Shown piece after piece: positions 53,005 to 64,000 of a DNA stretch of 64,000 nucleotides; position 1 is the stretch's first letter; each line of letters opens with the position of its first letter. Position numbers and translations under genes: made by a program. Below the pieces are notes generated by a model, which did not search any database, was not told where the DNA came from, and worked only from the letters and a program-made list of their open reading frames with translations. Source of the stretch: Hyphomicrobiales bacterium (GTDB lineage Bacteria; Pseudomonadota; Alphaproteobacteria; Rhizobiales; Rhizobiaceae); contig UCKS01000017.1 of assembly GCA_900473045.1 (NCBI GenBank), forward strand, positions 1 to 64,000, read 5' to 3'.

Positions 53005-53309
53005 AGCTCTGCTCCATCGAAGTTGGGCGAGAGCAAACAATCTCTCAAACAGTACACCCGAGGAAAAAGGGTGGGTCAGTGGGGCTGGTACTCATACTGC
53101 GGGCCAACTCCGTCGGCTGGCTATTAACTTTATTAATGCCCGAATAATAATTCCAGCGTGCGCTCGGTACGGCTTGTATGGTTTCTTCCGCAATACGGCA
53201 CAGTATCAGCCAAGAACTTGTGTACGCGCATGCCTCATGCAACTGAAGCGCTGTCTACGGAACTAAAGCTGTTCGTGAGCATTTTTCTCTTTTGCAGGGG
53301 AGATGGCAG
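53005..53309. other. Intergenic region upstream of the first ku gene
   Basis: GGAAC (53259-53263), 16 bases, CATT (53280-53283) sits 26 bases before the ku ATG. It resembles the stress promoter but has a mismatch in the core -10 box. Nothing else is recognised. Confidence 0.35.
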
Positions 53310-54170
53310 ATGGCACCACGCGCGAACTGGAAAGGGTTTCTCAAGATCGGTGAGCTTACGTGCGCTGTCTCCCTCTACACTGCAGCTTCGACATCAGAGC
53401 GAATTGCCTTCCACACCCTGAACCGCAAGACCGGAAATCGTGTCCGACGCGAGTTCGTCGACGGCGAAACGGGTAAGGTGGTTGAGCGGGATGACCAGGT
53501 TAAGGGTTACGAAGATTCCAACGGGCACTACGTCGTCTTCGAGCCAGAAGAGGTCGCCGCAGCGGTTCCGGACGCGGACAAAATGCTCGACGCGGACATG
53601 TTCATCGATTGCGAGGACATCGATGACGTCTACTTCGACAAGCCATACTACCTTTCCCCGTCGGATAAGCAGAGCCGCGAAGTCTTCATCCTGATTCGTG
53701 ATGGGCTAGAAAAGAAGAAAGTGGCCGCTATTGCTGAGACCGTACTGTTCAGGCGGGTCCGCAAGCTTTTGATCAGACCCCACGGAAAGGGGCTCGTCGC
53801 ATCAACGCTCAATTTCGAATACGAGGTCCGCTCGGCAGAAGATGCCTTCAGCGATACGCCGAACCTGAAAATTGAAAAGGAACTGCTCGATCTGGCCGAC
53901 CACATTATCGCTGGCAAGATGGGCAAGTTCGATCCCAGCAAGTTTGATGACCGCTATGAGGACGCACTGACGGAAGTGGTAAAGGCCAAGCTCGAGGGCA
54001 GGGAGATCAAATCACGCCCGGCTCCGGAACCAACGAAGGTTGTGAACCTGATGGATGCCCTCCGGCAGAGTGCCGGCCTCAAGAACGATGCGAGAAAGCA
54101 AAGCAAGAAATCGGCGAAAAGCGCTGACACCCCGCAGAAGAAAAAGGCTCCGACCCGCAAGGCGAGCTGA
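53310..54170 (+). CDS. ku: Ku homodimer/heterodimer DNA end-binding protein
   Basis: The 286-residue protein is a bacterial Ku: MAPRANWKGFLKIGELTCAV, TSERIAFHTLNRKTGNRVRR, DDVYFDKPYYLSPSD and AETVLFRRVRKLLIRPHGKG. A lysine-rich C-terminal tail (KKSAKSADTPQKKKAPTRK) can touch DNA or LigD. Ku forms a ring on broken DNA ends and recruits LigD in non-homologous end joining. The ATG at 53310 starts at the conserved MAPR..WKG; the TTG at 53292 is not needed. A second, convergent ku ends 12 bases downstream. Sinorhizobium meliloti also has adjacent ku genes whose products work as a pair. Confidence 0.95.
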   Translation: MAPRANWKGFLKIGELTCAVSLYTAASTSERIAFHTLNRKTGNRVRREFVDGETGKVVERDDQVKGYEDSNGHYVVFEPEEVAAAVPDADKMLDADMFIDCEDIDDVYFDKPYYLSPSDKQSREVFILIRDGLEKKKVAAIAETVLFRRVRKLLIRPHGKGLVASTLNFEYEVRSAEDAFSDTPNLKIEKELLDLADHIIAGKMGKFDPSKFDDRYEDALTEVVKAKLEGREIKSRPAPEPTKVVNLMDALRQSAGLKNDARKQSKKSAKSADTPQKKKAPTRKAS

Positions 54171-54182
54171 CTAATCTGGAGA

Positions 54183-54980
54183 TTATTTTTTCTTTGACGC
54201 TTCCAGGCTCTTTTTGAGAGCGTCCATGATGTTGATCACGTTGCTTGACCCCTTGCCCTCGGCCTTTGGGGCGGCCTTCTTCTTCGATTTGCCCTTTTTC
54301 TTGGCGGCGATCATGTCGAGGATGCGGTCTTGGACCGGGTCATCAACGATAGACGGGTTCCATGGCGTTGAGCGAGCCTCGATGAACTTTTCCATGAGCT
54401 GCATGTAGTCAGATTCGGATTTTTCCGGTCCGATAGCTTTAAAATATTCATTCGGATCACGCACTTCGTCGCCGTAACGCAGTGTCCACAGGACGATACC
54501 ATTATCGCGGGGTTCAAGCATCACGGCCCGTTCCCGCCGATACATCACAAGTCTAGCAATTCCGACCACGCCCTTGATCGCCATCGCCTCGCGGATAACG
54601 GCGAACGCTTCCTCTCCGACCTTGTCGCTCGGTGTGAGGTAATGCGGTGTGTCGTACCAGATCCATTCGATCGAATCTTTTGGGACAAAAGTCTCGATAT
54701 CAATCGTACGCGTACTTTCCAGCGCGACGGCATCTATCTCGTCGTCTTCCAGCATGACGTATTCATCTTCGCCACGCTGAAAACCTTTGACCTCGTCGTC
54801 TTCACCCACCTCGCGCCCGGTCACGGAATCGACGTAGCGGCTGACGACACGGTTTTCCGTGGCTCGGTTCAGGGTATGGAACCGTACCTTCTCACTCTCG
54901 TTGGTCGCTGGGACCATGGAGACCGCGCAGTTCACCAGAGAAAGCTTGAGGTAGCCTTTCCAGAATGACCGAGGTGCCAT
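54183..54980 (-). CDS. ku: Ku DNA end-binding protein, second copy
   Basis: The 265-residue Ku reads MAPRSFWKGYLKLSLVNCAV, SEKVRFHTLNRATENRVVSR, IEWIWYDTPHYLTPSDK and ARLVMYRRERAVMLEPRDNG. It has a lysine-rich tail (KKKGKSKKKAAPKAEGKGSS) and ends in a conserved helix with MDALKKSLE. It is clearly different from the neighbouring Ku, so this is not a recent tandem duplication. It starts at 54980, 28 bases after a perfect EcfG-type promoter. The gene is divergent from ligD. A heterodimer with the other Ku is plausible. Confidence 0.95.
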   Translation of the reverse strand: MAPRSFWKGYLKLSLVNCAVSMVPATNESEKVRFHTLNRATENRVVSRYVDSVTGREVGEDDEVKGFQRGEDEYVMLEDDEIDAVALESTRTIDIETFVPKDSIEWIWYDTPHYLTPSDKVGEEAFAVIREAMAIKGVVGIARLVMYRRERAVMLEPRDNGIVLWTLRYGDEVRDPNEYFKAIGPEKSESDYMQLMEKFIEARSTPWNPSIVDDPVQDRILDMIAAKKKGKSKKKAAPKAEGKGSSNVINIMDALKKSLEASKKK

Positions 54981-55008
54981 GCAAGATACTCCGTGGGAAT
55001 TCTTCGTG

Positions 55009-55033
55009 AACGGCGAGATGCCTGGTTTGTTCC
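55009..55033 (-). promoter_or_regulatory. Perfect EcfG promoter driving ku
   Basis: On the minus strand GGAAC (55033-55029), exactly 16 bases, CGTT (55012-55009), 28 bases before the ku ATG at 54980. All nine consensus bases match. It links this end-joining gene to the general stress response. No such site was found before ligD. Confidence 0.75.
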
Positions 55034-55153
55034 TCACTTGGGGTCACTTTAGCGGAAGGTAAGTCGCTATTTTTGCCAGGAGCCGGCAGCTAACGCATCT
55101 TTTGCAGAGGCCGCGCGTTATGGCGATCATCATCGAAGTGTTCCGAGGGTCCG

Positions 55154-58550: not shown

Positions 58551-60827
58551 TCATACCGGCGGGGGTTTGTTGTGCAAGGAATCAAACTGTAGTCGGATTT
58601 GACTGATCTCACGTGCAAGAGGCTCGTAAACGTCCCGACCGGACGCTGTGAAATTCATTGAAATCAGACCGTTTTCGCATCGCCGTTCATCGTCCCAACC
58701 GAGGTGATTGATGATGGGATAGAGGCAGATACCTTCTACAGGCACGCCCGCATTCATTGCGGCACGCACCTCGGCGTGCACGTAGACAAACCAGTCCGCC
58801 CGCCTTTCGGCCTCAATCCCCGTTTCGGCTATAAAAATCGGCTTGCCATAGCGCGCGTAGGTTTCGATCAGGATCGTGCGGAGCGGCTTGTAAAGGGGGT
58901 GATCCATGTCAATCGGGGGCCCCGCATGGATCCACTGGTTGTTGTGATAGTAATTGACTCCGACAATATCGAGATAGTTTTCGGCACCACCAACCTGGGG
59001 CCAAAGACGACCCGCAATGAGATCCCAGCCTTGGAACTGGGACTGCCGATGGCCTTCTGCGACCTTTTGATCCCACGGCCGGTATGGATCGGTGACGACG
59101 TTTATGACCGGATCGCAGTGCACAAAGCGTGCCCGCCGATCAATGCTACGTATGGCGTCCATAGCGGCAATCGAGGCGCGTGCGAGTTGGACTTTAAGTT
59201 CGAAGCCGCGTCCATGGGCGAACGGATTGAGGTAACCTGCATCGCCACCCCCCCAAGAGAAAAAAGAGATTTCGTTGACGGGCGTATAGAACGGCGTGGT
59301 CCCACTCTCTTCTTTCACAATTTGTGCCACTGCTTCGGCAAACCGCGCGAAGCGCATGACGAAGTCTGGCTGCCAGATGTCGATATCGTCCGGCCATCCA
59401 TAATGCAGCAGATCCCAAATGACTTGGGTATCTGTCGCCCGCGCTGCGCGTAGCATGGGTAGGAAGCTCGACCAGTTGTATTTTCCAGGAACCGTCTCGA
59501 TGAGATGCCAGCGCAATCCATCCCGCACAGTTCGGATCGAGTACTGGGCGAGTTGAGCGTAGTCACTCGCGACGTTGACATCATGTCCGGTGGCTGTGAT
59601 CATGTCGAGCCGTTTTCCGGTTTTTTCGCCCTCACGGGGGCGCAGGCGGTGCGTTGAACACTCAAAACCCCCCTGCAGAAACGATTGGAATAGACCCTTA
59701 GGGCCGGAGCTCGCCCTTTGGGACAGAACTTCGCTGAAAAGGTGCTGCCATTGTGGAATAACGGCAGCGGTGCTGTAGTGAGTCTCCACCTTCGAACGCA
59801 GCGTTCGGCCTAGCGTTTTACGCAAGTCTGTGGACTTGATCAGCGTTTTCATGGCGTTCGCAACGGAGGCGGGGTCGCTAAAGCTCACGAACAGGCCCGA
59901 TATTCCGTCTTCAATTTGCTGGAGAACGCCGTTGTCGGGCGTTGCGATTACAGGCAAACCAGCAGCGCCCGCCTCTGCGATCACATGAGGCATGCCTTCG
60001 CCAGAGGACAACCATACGAAGATGTCAAAAGCGGCGAGGAGCGCTGGGATGTCTTTCCGGTCGCCTAGAAAGGTCAACGCTTGCGTCAATCCACGGGCCA
60101 CTGCGAGCGACTGCAGTTGGACGGCGTAATCTGGCATGAAAGCATCTGGTCCTCCGACGATGACAAAGCGCGCATCGGCATATTCTGCATGCACGATCGC
60201 CGCCGCCTCGATGAAGTCTTCGACATTTTTCTTACGATCGAGCCTGCCCACCCAGCCAATCACTACATGGCTCTCCGACACGTTAAGTGATCTGCGCATC
60301 TCGCCGCGCTGAGCCGGATCGTACTCCAAGAGATCCACCATCGAAGGGATCTCTAACGCATGGTTTTCCCGTCCCGGCATAGCCGAGGCGGCAGCGTCGC
60401 GTATAGACCGGCAGACGCCGACATAGCGCGTGGTGAAATGCTTGGGGCCCGCCAAAGCTTCAGAAACAAGCCCCCCGTGCTCTATAAGCGGGGGGCGCAG
60501 ATGAATACGATCCAGCGCCGGATAAATATCGGCCACATTCTGGCAAGAGACGATGACATCATATCCCGCAATCTTGCTTGCCAGATAGGAAACTGTGTCC
60601 TCGAACGACAGTTCGTAGGGCATCGTGTCCACGTCAACGCCGAGTGCCGCGAGCTGTTCATGTGTCTGTTCCGGCATATTGGATTTGCGGAAACACGCAA
60701 CGACATCGACCTTATAGCGAGAGGGGTCGAGATTGCGGGCGAGCAGTCGCACTTCCGTTTCTTCGCCCCCGACCACAAGCCATGCGAAAACGAATAAAAT
60801 GCGGATTGGCGGTTCGGCCGGGCTCAT
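58551..60827 (-). CDS. GT4 glycosyltransferase fused to a clan-A-like glycoside hydrolase
   Basis: The 758-residue protein joins two enzymes. Residues 1 to about 385 form a GT-B glycosyltransferase of family 4 (ILFVFAWLVVGGEETEVRLL, VIGWVGRLDRKKNVEDFIEA and the donor-site E-x7-E EGMPHVIAE). Residues about 420-750 form a TIM-barrel hydrolase, with an acid/base candidate in FYTPVNEISF (about 518) and a nucleophile candidate in PIFIAETGIEA (about 666), like GH1/GH5-type beta-glycosidases. No signal peptide or membrane helix is present. Its ATG overlaps the stop of the upstream three-domain gene, so both are co-translated. It may extend and trim the same glycan. The substrate is unknown. Confidence 0.88.
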   Translation of the reverse strand: MSPAEPPIRILFVFAWLVVGGEETEVRLLARNLDPSRYKVDVVACFRKSNMPEQTHEQLAALGVDVDTMPYELSFEDTVSYLASKIAGYDVIVSCQNVADIYPALDRIHLRPPLIEHGGLVSEALAGPKHFTTRYVGVCRSIRDAAASAMPGRENHALEIPSMVDLLEYDPAQRGEMRRSLNVSESHVVIGWVGRLDRKKNVEDFIEAAAIVHAEYADARFVIVGGPDAFMPDYAVQLQSLAVARGLTQALTFLGDRKDIPALLAAFDIFVWLSSGEGMPHVIAEAGAAGLPVIATPDNGVLQQIEDGISGLFVSFSDPASVANAMKTLIKSTDLRKTLGRTLRSKVETHYSTAAVIPQWQHLFSEVLSQRASSGPKGLFQSFLQGGFECSTHRLRPREGEKTGKRLDMITATGHDVNVASDYAQLAQYSIRTVRDGLRWHLIETVPGKYNWSSFLPMLRAARATDTQVIWDLLHYGWPDDIDIWQPDFVMRFARFAEAVAQIVKEESGTTPFYTPVNEISFFSWGGGDAGYLNPFAHGRGFELKVQLARASIAAMDAIRSIDRRARFVHCDPVINVVTDPYRPWDQKVAEGHRQSQFQGWDLIAGRLWPQVGGAENYLDIVGVNYYHNNQWIHAGPPIDMDHPLYKPLRTILIETYARYGKPIFIAETGIEAERRADWFVYVHAEVRAAMNAGVPVEGICLYPIINHLGWDDERRCENGLISMNFTASGRDVYEPLAREISQIRLQFDSLHNKPPPV

Positions 60828-63800
60828 TCGCCGACCTTGAAGACGATCTGCAGGAAATCCGGCCGGTTCTCCACGAGATCACTGAGGAATTTGGGGGCGT
60901 CATCAAACGGTATGACATGCGTGATCATGTGCTCGCGGATGAGGACTCCATGGCTTTGCATCAATTTGATAGTTTCCCCGGCAAGCCTGCGCCTGTCCCA
61001 GAGTGGCGCCAGTCCGCGCGGCACACGATTGATCTGTGCGCAGCGGATGTTAAGTCCGTTGTGGTGAAATTCCTCGCCGAGCCGGAGTGCATCCGCGCCG
61101 TCTTGATAGAACGCAAGATCGATCACAGTGCCTTGCGGGCGTAGAGCTTTGAGGGCCACATGAAGACTCCTGGAATATGCGCGCGTCTGGAACACGACAT
61201 CCGCTCCACGGTCGCCAGCTCCACTGTGCCACAGGGCTTTCACGTGCTGCCAGACATCTTCTTCGGTCATGGATATCAGGCCCATGGCCCGGGCTTTTTG
61301 ACGCCGATATTCCGAAGGATCTGCAATGATAACGCCAGCCGCCCCCAACTTCTGCGCAAAGAGAGCAGTCATGAGGCCGACCGTCCCGGCTCCCAGTACC
61401 ACGACATTGCGCCCGGCTACTCCCGATCCCAGTTCGCGCACGGAGTTGCCGAGGGCATCTGCATCGGCATGGAGAATGCCATTGGCTGCAATCGGGCCCA
61501 TCTGCGCAACAAAGACACCGAGCATAGGATCGATCTCGGCCGGCAGGGAGACCAGCACATCATGAAACGGATTGGCAGTGTGGCCGCTTTTATGCGCGTA
61601 GGTCGTGGCCAAGACCGCACCGTTTGTAAATCCGGCAGCCCTTGAGTCTGAGATGCGAGCCACTTCCATGTAGCCAAGAAAGGGTACGGGATAGTGAAGG
61701 TCTGGCTCGTTTTCGATAAACACACCGCGCCCGGCGTCGAAACGGGAATGGAAGTAGGGGTTCGTGTTCTTCATGAAGGTCAATTCGGTCCCGGCGGAAA
61801 AGCCGGTGTAAAGCGTCTCTAGCCTGACCTGACCGTCGGCCGGGGGACCCTCTTCATACTCGACGAAGAATGGTTTGCCGGGGCTTTCAATCCCAAGCGA
61901 GCGGATGTGGCGGTGGCCCGGCTGAAGTCCCTGCGAGGCCTCTGATTGAGGTTGAGGCTGCAGCGGCGCTATCGCGTTGCGCCTGATGACCGGAGGATCG
62001 AGTTTGACGGGCTGGCCGCGACGGGCCGAGGATGCAACCGCGAGCGCCAACCGGTGCGTTGCCAGTGCATCCGCGTAGGAACACCGGATATGATTGTCGC
62101 CGCCGCGCACGGCATCGACAAAATCACGGTCCTCCCGCCAAACGGGATCACCCTTCGCGTCCCGCACTGGGCGACCGGCTCCAACATCGACCATGATGTC
62201 ATGGTCCGTAAGTTCGATGGCAAGCCGGTCTGCGAAAATATTCAACCCGACCTTGTGGCTCCAGCCAAGCAGGCATGTCGAGGCAATGTTAGCAATAACG
62301 CCGGACTGAAAGGTGAGGCTCGCGGTAGTGGCGGCCGGAACATCCAGCCCGGGGAAGTCGGGACGATCCTTGAAGCCGACGCGGCCGTAGACCTCCGTGA
62401 CCTCTCCTATCAGGTATCGTGCCAAGTCGATAATGTGCGTTGTCTGCTCGACGATCTGGCCACCTGAACGATCCAGTTTCCACCACCACTGCGGGGGCGG
62501 CGTCTGGTCGAGCCAGTAGCCAGAGAGCAGCTGAGCTGGATTGTCCGCCAAAAGACGACGGGCTTCCTCCACGGTATCCAAGTAGCGCCAGTGGTATCCC
62601 ACCGCCGTAATCAATCTCGCATCTTCAATAGCCGCAGCCAGTTCTTCTGCCAAGCCGACATCGAGTGTGATCGGCTTTTCTACGAAGAACGGGATGCCGC
62701 GCACGATGAGGTCCCGCTCCGCATCGCCATGGGCAAAGGGCGGGATGCAAATGTAGACGCTGTCTAGCGCCTCTGCATCCAACATCGCTCGGTGGCTTTC
62801 AAAGGCCCTTCCACCGAAGTTCGATGCGGCTTTTCGCGCTCGATCGAAATCCGGATCGGCAAATGCAACCAGTTCCACGTCCTCGAATCCTGCGAGAATA
62901 TCGAGATGGCGGTGAGCAATACCGCCGACGCCGATGAAGCCGATGCGTGTCTTGTCCATGTGAGCATGTCCCTGGTTGTCGTCTGGATGTGCGGAAATAA
63001 AGCGTCGGTAGATGGCAGCGGTTTCGTCCGCCATGCGTTGCGCTGAGAAATTTGTTTGAAATCGTTCGCGGCCGCTTTGGCCGATTGTTTTTGTCCGTTG
63101 CGGATCTTTCAGAGCCTCGATCAGCGATCGGCTCAATTGCGCGGGATTTTCGCATTCCGCTAGGAAAGGATGGCGTGGCCCAAGCGCCTCGACCGTGCCG
63201 CCGATGCGGGTTGCGACAACGGGCAACCCCAACGACATGGCTTCGAGCACCACCAGCGGCAGGCCCTCAAAACGAGACGGCAGGACCAGAAGGTCGGCAG
63301 TTGCCATCAGTTCGGCAATGTCGGCGCGTTGCCCCAGGAACAGAACGTGCGACGCCAGTGCCAGCTTTTCCACCAGCTCCCGCATCGGCCCCATCTCCTC
63401 ACCGGTGCCGGCAAGAAGCAGAATAGCGTCTGGATCGGTGGCAAGAACTGCCGGTAGAGCATGGATGAGTGTCGCGTGATCCTTCTGCTTTGTGAAGCGT
63501 GCCACCGTAAGCAGGACTTTCTTTCCCTCGAGCCCAAGTTCAGCTCTGGTGGTTCCGCCAACCGCGCGGAGGGCAAAAATTCCATTGCGCACCACCGTCA
63601 TTCGGACGGGATCGATTCCGTTTTTTGCGAAACTTAACCGCGAGGCCTCGGACACCACGATGTGATGACAAAGCACCTCACTTTGTTTTGCATAGTGCTC
63701 CATCTGCGCGCCGTCGGTCAGAAGATAGGGAAGATGCTCTGTCCGAATGACCGGGATGCCGCAGTTCGCTCCTGAATGGGCAATACTGTGCCCCTCCCAA

Positions 63801-63997
63801 CCTATTCCGGCATGCACATGCAACAAGGACGTGCCGGAAGACCGCAGCCATTGATCAAATGTACCGTCTTCCAAAATGGATTTGACAGCGAGCCCCGCAA
63901 CTGCGGCCCTTGACAGCAAATCGCTGCCTGTCCCATCACAAGCAGCGGCAAGCGTAACGTCGAACTGCGGCTTGAGTGCCTGTCCAAGCGTTAGCAT
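60824..63997 (-). CDS. Three-domain protein: GT4 glycosyltransferase, Gfo/Idh/MocA oxidoreductase, zinc-type dehydrogenase (5' end probably outside window)
   Basis: At least 1057 residues. About 1-335 is a GT4 glycosyltransferase that has lost its first beta strand at the window edge (VLLTVARFTKQKDHATLIHA; E-x7-E in EGLPLVVLE). About 348-690 is a Gfo/Idh/MocA sugar oxidoreductase (RIGFIGVGGIAHRH; EKPITLD with the catalytic-region lysine; GGQIVEQTTHIIDLARY). About 700-1057 is a medium-chain dehydrogenase (SAGTELTFM; VVVLGAGTVGLMTAL). It lacks the usual catalytic-zinc motif, like those in bi-domain oxidoreductases of polysaccharide loci. The M at 63997 is only the first in-frame Met in the window, so the true start lies beyond. 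It is coupled to the next gene by ATGA overlap. Confidence 0.88.
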   Translation of the reverse strand: MLTLGQALKPQFDVTLAAACDGTGSDLLSRAAVAGLAVKSILEDGTFDQWLRSSGTSLLHVHAGIGWEGHSIAHSGANCGIPVIRTEHLPYLLTDGAQMEHYAKQSEVLCHHIVVSEASRLSFAKNGIDPVRMTVVRNGIFALRAVGGTTRAELGLEGKKVLLTVARFTKQKDHATLIHALPAVLATDPDAILLLAGTGEEMGPMRELVEKLALASHVLFLGQRADIAELMATADLLVLPSRFEGLPLVVLEAMSLGLPVVATRIGGTVEALGPRHPFLAECENPAQLSRSLIEALKDPQRTKTIGQSGRERFQTNFSAQRMADETAAIYRRFISAHPDDNQGHAHMDKTRIGFIGVGGIAHRHLDILAGFEDVELVAFADPDFDRARKAASNFGGRAFESHRAMLDAEALDSVYICIPPFAHGDAERDLIVRGIPFFVEKPITLDVGLAEELAAAIEDARLITAVGYHWRYLDTVEEARRLLADNPAQLLSGYWLDQTPPPQWWWKLDRSGGQIVEQTTHIIDLARYLIGEVTEVYGRVGFKDRPDFPGLDVPAATTASLTFQSGVIANIASTCLLGWSHKVGLNIFADRLAIELTDHDIMVDVGAGRPVRDAKGDPVWREDRDFVDAVRGGDNHIRCSYADALATHRLALAVASSARRGQPVKLDPPVIRRNAIAPLQPQPQSEASQGLQPGHRHIRSLGIESPGKPFFVEYEEGPPADGQVRLETLYTGFSAGTELTFMKNTNPYFHSRFDAGRGVFIENEPDLHYPVPFLGYMEVARISDSRAAGFTNGAVLATTYAHKSGHTANPFHDVLVSLPAEIDPMLGVFVAQMGPIAANGILHADADALGNSVRELGSGVAGRNVVVLGAGTVGLMTALFAQKLGAAGVIIADPSEYRRQKARAMGLISMTEEDVWQHVKALWHSGAGDRGADVVFQTRAYSRSLHVALKALRPQGTVIDLAFYQDGADALRLGEEFHHNGLNIRCAQINRVPRGLAPLWDRRRLAGETIKLMQSHGVLIREHMITHVIPFDDAPKFLSDLVENRPDFLQIVFKVGE

Positions 63998-64000
63998 ATG

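Follow-up and report, generated by a model that had tools for sequence, protein, structure and literature searches.

In the bi-domain oxidoreductases of polysaccharide gene clusters, a medium-chain dehydrogenase (MDR) part comes first and a Gfo/Idh/MocA (Gfo) part second. Here we describe a gene from a Hyphomicrobiales bacterium of the family Rhizobiaceae that likewise places Gfo and MDR parts in one chain within a glycan gene cluster, but in the order Gfo then MDR, with a GT4 glycosyltransferase (GT) added in front. Unlike the bi-domain enzymes, it arose by fusion of adjacent genes, which some relatives still keep apart. The gene lies at the edge of the DNA analysed (the window), which takes in the first 64,000 bases of a host contig 283,323 bases long (G000:C70; UCKS01000017.1). 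A second parallel comes from type III secretion, where two reports describe SpaO and HrcQ as giving both a full-length and a C-terminal product from one frame through an internal start (PMC13059759, PMC8553256). Two products from an internal start, reported there, are inferred here; in contrast, our case is an enzyme fusion whose start site would have been inherited from a once separate gene. We propose, with a probability of roughly 0.7, that the locus is a genuine and conserved fusion of three neighbouring genes, with a leaky GT-Gfo joint, two products, and redox and galactofuranose roles.

The minus-strand frame runs without a stop from 60824 up to the window edge. An initial annotation of the window had described it as one unbroken chain of more than 1057 codons with three enzymes, the GT in front and Gfo before the MDR. 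The architecture and the continuation of the frame past the window both hold, and the true length is 1080 rather than 1057 amino acids. Flanking DNA, from which that annotation had hoped to recover the full 5′ end, puts the gene start at contig position 64066 (gene 60824-64066, minus strand), with the first 22 codons (66 bases) beyond the window and the ATG at 63997 as codon 24. Pfam recovers the three domains in this order along the chain: Glycos_transf_1 (PF00534) at residues 174-335 (E 2.9e-35), GFO_IDH_MocA (PF01408) at 374-491 (E 2.6e-23, above cut-off) and ADH_zinc_N (PF00107) at 896-990 (E 4.9e-11; 43.1 bits against a cut-off of 31.8).

Within the window the open frame, shared by orthologues, occupies 60824-64000, and all its parts are on the minus strand. 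The GT4 domain (residues 1-357; 62996-64000, true 5′ end 64066) is defined by PF00534 and PF13439, invariant columns and a GT-B fold. It is followed by linker 1 (residues 358-369; 62960-62995), which is variable and has low pLDDT (359-370); over 29 fused rows the mean identity to the window sequence in residues 358-368 is 0.33. The Gfo domain (residues 370-690; 61997-62959), recognised by Pfam, motifs and invariant columns, leads into a proline-rich linker 2 (residues 691-725; 61892-61996), in which the former MDR start is not kept with a ribosome-binding site. The MDR domain (residues 726-1080; 60827-61891) keeps its NAD motif and lacks the usual zinc motifs. An AlphaFold model of the whole chain reached a pTM of 0.40 and was poor in the C-terminal half of Gfo, so no domain packing is claimed.

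We compared 45 loci carrying GT, Gfo and MDR (the window, L004-L039, L053-L058, L077 and L078). Three duplicates (L050, L051 and L052, of L022, L020 and L031) were dropped from the tree and the junction counts. Outside the 45 stand L043 (a fused copy on a short contig that begins at query residue 21), L065 (from Nonomuraea, with Gfo and MDR adjacent yet separate), loci without Gfo-MDR, and the later-found L101-L112, which enter no count. Alignment A1 holds 26 of the 29 fused orthologues, and A2 holds 26 of 42 usable rows. The same three-part frame, which the initial annotation had suggested seeking in related genomes, occurs in 29 of the 45 loci, window included, which is far more than chance would give; as the architecture recurs in relatives, homologues are not found only as three separate proteins. 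These full fusions are 1076-1085 residues long, and the 26 aligned orthologues are 60-91% identical to that of the window. The remaining loci have GT-Gfo fused and MDR separate (7), three separate genes (8), or, in Rhizobium tibeticum, GT separate and Gfo-MDR fused (1). Gfo and MDR thus share one chain in 30 loci.

These orthologues bear directly on whether separate genes were merely joined by an assembly or sequencing frame error. The initial annotation had named positions near 62960 and 61900 as suspects, and these sites fall in the two inter-domain linkers, which are open in orthologues too. An identical joint frame is present in independent plasmids and genomes, and in nine of the 26 sampled genomes of the genus (the window's included) it is one open frame of at least 1081 codons. 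No observation spoke for a frame error. Because orthologues carry the same open frame, we reject it, and its probability is close to nil. By sequence comparison, the three-domain frame is genuine, conserved and unusual in architecture, a so far uncharacterised fusion and not a sequencing error.

A maximum-likelihood tree of Gfo and MDR implies three state changes for the GT/Gfo joint and two for the Gfo/MDR joint. Holding all Gfo-MDR-fused rows together was not rejected by the approximately unbiased test (p 0.31), and the same test was borderline for the eight fully split loci as one clade (p 0.06). The proline-rich linker 2 is similar in Aureimonas and Rhizobium, so a single origin of the Gfo-MDR fusion is possible. 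The R. tibeticum locus, whose linker 1 contains an in-frame TGA, is sister to the fused R. mongolense (support 100/100); nested as it is in a fused clade, it is a secondary split. On this comparison, the three-part gene was built up step by step within an operon that is itself conserved, and Gfo and MDR are truly fused, across a linker rich in proline.

The GT/Gfo joint differs in character. At nine loci where GT and Gfo are apart, the Gfo gene starts with ATG, preceded by a Shine-Dalgarno core in six. Every one of the 36 GT-Gfo-fused loci retains this ATG in frame, and a strict core (AGGA and similar) lies 5-10 bases before it in 34 of these. Control in-frame ATGs of the same frames have a core in 54 of 597 cases (Fisher p 6e-30, on rows related by kinship), and the median duplex energy is -4.9 at the inner ATG against -2.7 at 607 control ATGs. 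In the window, the putative internal start codon (Met370; 62957-62959) equals the Gfo start of the split genomes, and a putative Shine-Dalgarno sequence, AGGGA (62969-62973), precedes it. Among ten held-out plasmid loci fetched afterwards, several of them near relatives of earlier rows, all nine fused copies keep the ATG and eight have the strict core; the tenth, L100, is broken within Gfo and was excluded from the fused count.

Two features of these signals bear on the alternative that the single chain is the sole product, with an intermediate passed obligately between GT, Gfo and MDR and Met370 merely structural. The core sits in codon registers 0, 1 and 2 in 22, 8 and 4 loci, respectively, so that the nucleotide signal is conserved although the encoded peptide varies, a pattern that selection on protein would not yield. 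Further, among the operon's fused junctions compared, ATG plus core is kept at GT/Gfo only (Gfo/MDR 0/30, GT/mutase 0/31, GT/glycosidase 0/43). A channelled intermediate had been the functional suggestion of the initial annotation, and it does fit a fused frame in 29 loci with catalytic-type residues kept in GT and Gfo and the NAD motif kept in the MDR. However, the parts are separate in eight loci and half-fused in another eight, including the nested re-split of R. tibeticum, the start signals at GT/Gfo persist, and the structural model offers no packing in its support. We consider obligate channelling unlikely. The accompanying idea of keto formation followed by reduction on one residue is a guess.

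A different alternative is that the fusion is neutral or nearly so, a loss of stop codons in a packed operon that left start and Shine-Dalgarno as relics and brought no functional gain. Borders between these genes in split genomes are indeed compact or overlapping, the GT/Gfo joint changed state three times on the tree, and other fusions occur in the same operon. Yet Met370 is constant at 36 of 36 loci, its column showing no parsimony changes, whereas the 12 columns in front of it underwent 9-23 changes apiece. Where the junction encodes Gln-Gly, it is written CAAGGA in 17 of 20 loci against 5 of 95 other Gln-Gly pairs of these frames, and ATG plus core is found at none of the other junctions. 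We regard neutrality as improbable, a shade more so than obligate channelling. The junction signals point to partly independent production of Gfo-MDR, and the kept inner start makes a two-product gene the most likely reading.

Several observations weigh against a two-product gene. The window's own site (CAGGGA/AGGGA, duplex -4.6) has no strict core, and the same is true of L021 and the held-out L097, both of GAGAG type at -8.3. For comparison, the duplex energy is -2.2 at the fused gene's own first start and -3.8 at the downstream gene's start. In wider windows at the control junctions, an ATG without a core occurs in 11/30, 1/31 and 3/43 cases (in the order given above). Many of the 45 rows, and several held-out rows, are close relatives of others, so the counts are not independent events. 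Part of the Shine-Dalgarno signal could be left over from the time when the genes were separate, and Shine-Dalgarno-like strings in coding sequence can pause ribosomes rather than start them. Finally, the guess at the product comes from family names alone, the best NCBIfam matches of the chain being far under their cut-offs.

The domains themselves resemble known enzymes at a distance. The GT domain shares a GT-B fold and an E-x7-E motif (E267-x7-E275, invariant in the 26-row alignment) with the GT4 enzymes HepE (4XSO), BshA (2JJM/3MBO) and the XrtA/PEP-CTERM GT TIGR03088. In a fold search it matched HepE (4xso_A) with a Z of 37.9 and an rmsd of 2.2 over 339 residues, but at 21% identity, and its TIGR03088 score was 128 against a cut-off of 409. 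The best 50 matches per fold search of the chain model were mostly or only GT-B glycosyltransferase chains, and so are uninformative about the other domains. The Gfo domain has the Rossmann domain and the EKP and H..D motifs of IolG (TIGR04380), UDP-GlcNAc 3-dehydrogenase (NF040723) and DgpA (7XR9); E463-K464-P465 and H544..D547 are invariant in 26 rows, and both motifs are present at 45 of 45 loci. The best-scoring families for this domain, dehydrogenases of inositol, UDP-GlcNAc and glycosides, all fall well short of their cut-offs (107 bits for IolG, cut-off 355), and none of the seven NCBIfam models that match the domain reached its cut-off.

The MDR domain has the NAD-binding half of the fold seen in threonine 3-dehydrogenase, scyllo-inosose 3-dehydrogenase IolM and BchC, with a G892-x-G-x-V-G motif present at all 45 loci. 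The usual catalytic zinc ligands of MDR alcohol dehydrogenases are a Cys and a Gly-His-Glu. Here, in contrast to those three enzymes, a motif test (not a structural one) found Gly-His-Glu at none of the 45 loci and a Cys near SAGTE at one; SAGTE and GYME stand at all 45 in place of the usual zinc motifs. Given the absence of Gly-His-Glu and the near-total lack of the Cys, the MDR is probably zinc-free, to judge by these motifs.

The comparison shows the GT-Gfo joint to be a leaky fusion, which lost the stop but retained the former Gfo start together with its ribosome-binding site, apparently through selection at the nucleotide level. From this we infer two products. The first would be the 1080-residue GT-Gfo-MDR chain, translated by coupling from the upstream gene across an ATGA overlap. 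The second would be a 711-residue Gfo-MDR protein begun at Met370. From their families, the two NAD(P)-type domains would most likely oxidise and re-reduce a sugar hydroxyl in an epimerisation-like reaction. The GT domains, together with a UDP-galactopyranose mutase and a GH1-like partner encoded next to the gene, may build or trim a galactofuranose-containing oligosaccharide.

One scan of genome contigs gave 33 relatives, from Rhizobium, Sinorhizobium/Ensifer, Agrobacterium, Shinella, Mycoplana, Aureimonas, Devosia and Rhodobacter-type genera. A plasmid collection held 65 matching records, and in 56 of them a single place accounts for 80% or more of the query; the fusion is therefore not peculiar to the window genome. 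On plasmids of R. leguminosarum WSM1325, Pararhizobium qamdonense and S. meliloti M162 it is a single coding sequence (CDS) named 'glycosyltransferase'. Sinorhizobium medicae WSM419 is another carrier among the plasmid matches. In sampled genomes, always counting the window's, the gene was found at E 1e-100 in 9 of 26 of the genus and 11 of 151 of the family. The Gfo-MDR part was found at E 1e-40 in 4 of 199 genomes of the order (one of them with Gfo only), and an MDR query at E 1e-60 found 1 of 289 genomes of the class, the window's own. The distribution of the fused gene is patchy. Five haloarchaeal rows among the matches listed are Gfo alone (29-43% identity), and no such operon lies near the Gfo match in Halomontanus, the one haloarchaeal locus opened. 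In Sinorhizobium sp. M103 the frame (L100, 773-4238) is interrupted within Gfo, and the PLSDB gene table lists no CDS for it; strains related to M103 have intact copies. Among the matches listed from the open-licence literature, whose titles and abstract openings were the basis for judgement, no description of the fusion, the operon or the operon's product was found.

The fused gene overlaps both its neighbours by ATGA. Upstream, contig positions 64063-66441 encode a glycosyltransferase domain with a UDP-galactopyranose mutase (TIGR00031, 369 bits against a cut-off of 304), and a further glycosyltransferase gene (66486-67739) lies 44 bases before it. Downstream, on the same minus strand, is a GT4 and GH1-like glycosidase fusion of 758 amino acids (58551-60827). 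Because the fused gene overlaps both neighbours, the four genes look like one operon. The UDP-galactopyranose mutase was not found on the operon strand in 14 of the 45 loci. The operon also contains other fusions: at L031 (4301-7969) a single frame, open over 1223 codons, links three more of its parts (GT, GT and UDP-galactopyranose mutase).

The glycosidase part of 58551-60827 matched no Pfam model at E 1. Its Glu519 and Glu668 are invariant in 26 rows, and we take them to correspond to the clan GH-A catalytic pair. This domain probably represents a glycosidase subfamily that Pfam does not cover. Together with GT and mutase it is spread more widely than the fused gene: at E 1e-60 the domain turned up in 15 of the 199 genomes sampled from the order. 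Of fourteen other glycosidase loci mapped, 11 carry GT and mutase close by but no Gfo-MDR within the stretch analysed, two have the full set and one has neither. At L079-L086 and L088-L090, in other families of the order, GT, UDP-galactopyranose mutase and glycosidase are often on opposite strands. Relatives of the glycosidase are also found on Azospirillum, Deinococcus, Pantoea and Mesorhizobium plasmids. The smaller set of GT, mutase and glycosidase is possibly the ancestral module.

On one side of the operon the window genome has genes for DUF892, a response regulator, two Ku proteins and LigD, and on the other an exonuclease, a Y-family polymerase and an SRAP protease. The two Ku-domain genes (53292-55037) are on opposite strands and adjoin LigD, with DUF892 nearby. 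Around the operon on R. leguminosarum pR132503 are ImuA, Y-family polymerase, error-prone polymerase, ferritin-like and DUF892 genes, and about 9 kb separate LigD from the shorter GT-mutase-glycosidase set in Mesorhizobium AR02. In Pararhizobium the operon is instead surrounded by genes for type II secretion and others. Some 8-12 kb past the operon's 5′ end, L003 (1389-2549) and L002 (18934-19974) encode ArdC-type antirestriction and DUF3991/Toprim proteins, which suggest a plasmid or an integrated element.

The general stress regulators EcfG/RpoE2 have the promoter consensus GGAAC-N16/17-CGTT. An EcfG-type motif (N15-18, C/T in the -10) is present in 9 of the 46 upstream regions, three duplicates included, against 2.25% of random windows. 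A relaxed form with at most one mismatch was found at 15 of 42 loci, a figure that includes both L031 and its duplicate L052, compared with 8% of random windows. Neither form occurs in the window genome, which has two mismatches to the consensus. A link of the operon to stress is plausible. In Sphingomonas melonis, the EcfG list in PMC6599016 includes two neighbours with EcfG motifs, named 'Glycosyltransferase' and 'Glycosidases', which may correspond to the operon's GT/GH pair.

The graded natural series of three genes, half-fused, fully fused and re-split forms offers a direct test of what fusion does to a pathway. If our reading is true, the kept inner start would clearly exemplify gene fusion that adds a product and replaces none. 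Annotation as a single 'glycosyltransferase' misses the oxidoreductases and, if real, the second product. The carriers are soil and root-nodule bacteria, and in several genomes the operon adjoins DNA-repair and stress genes. We see an even chance that, in these bacteria, one gene supplies three-enzyme and free two-enzyme chains in a tuned ratio, and that the often plasmid-borne, stress-adjacent operon to which it belongs would make a galactofuranose-type glycan.

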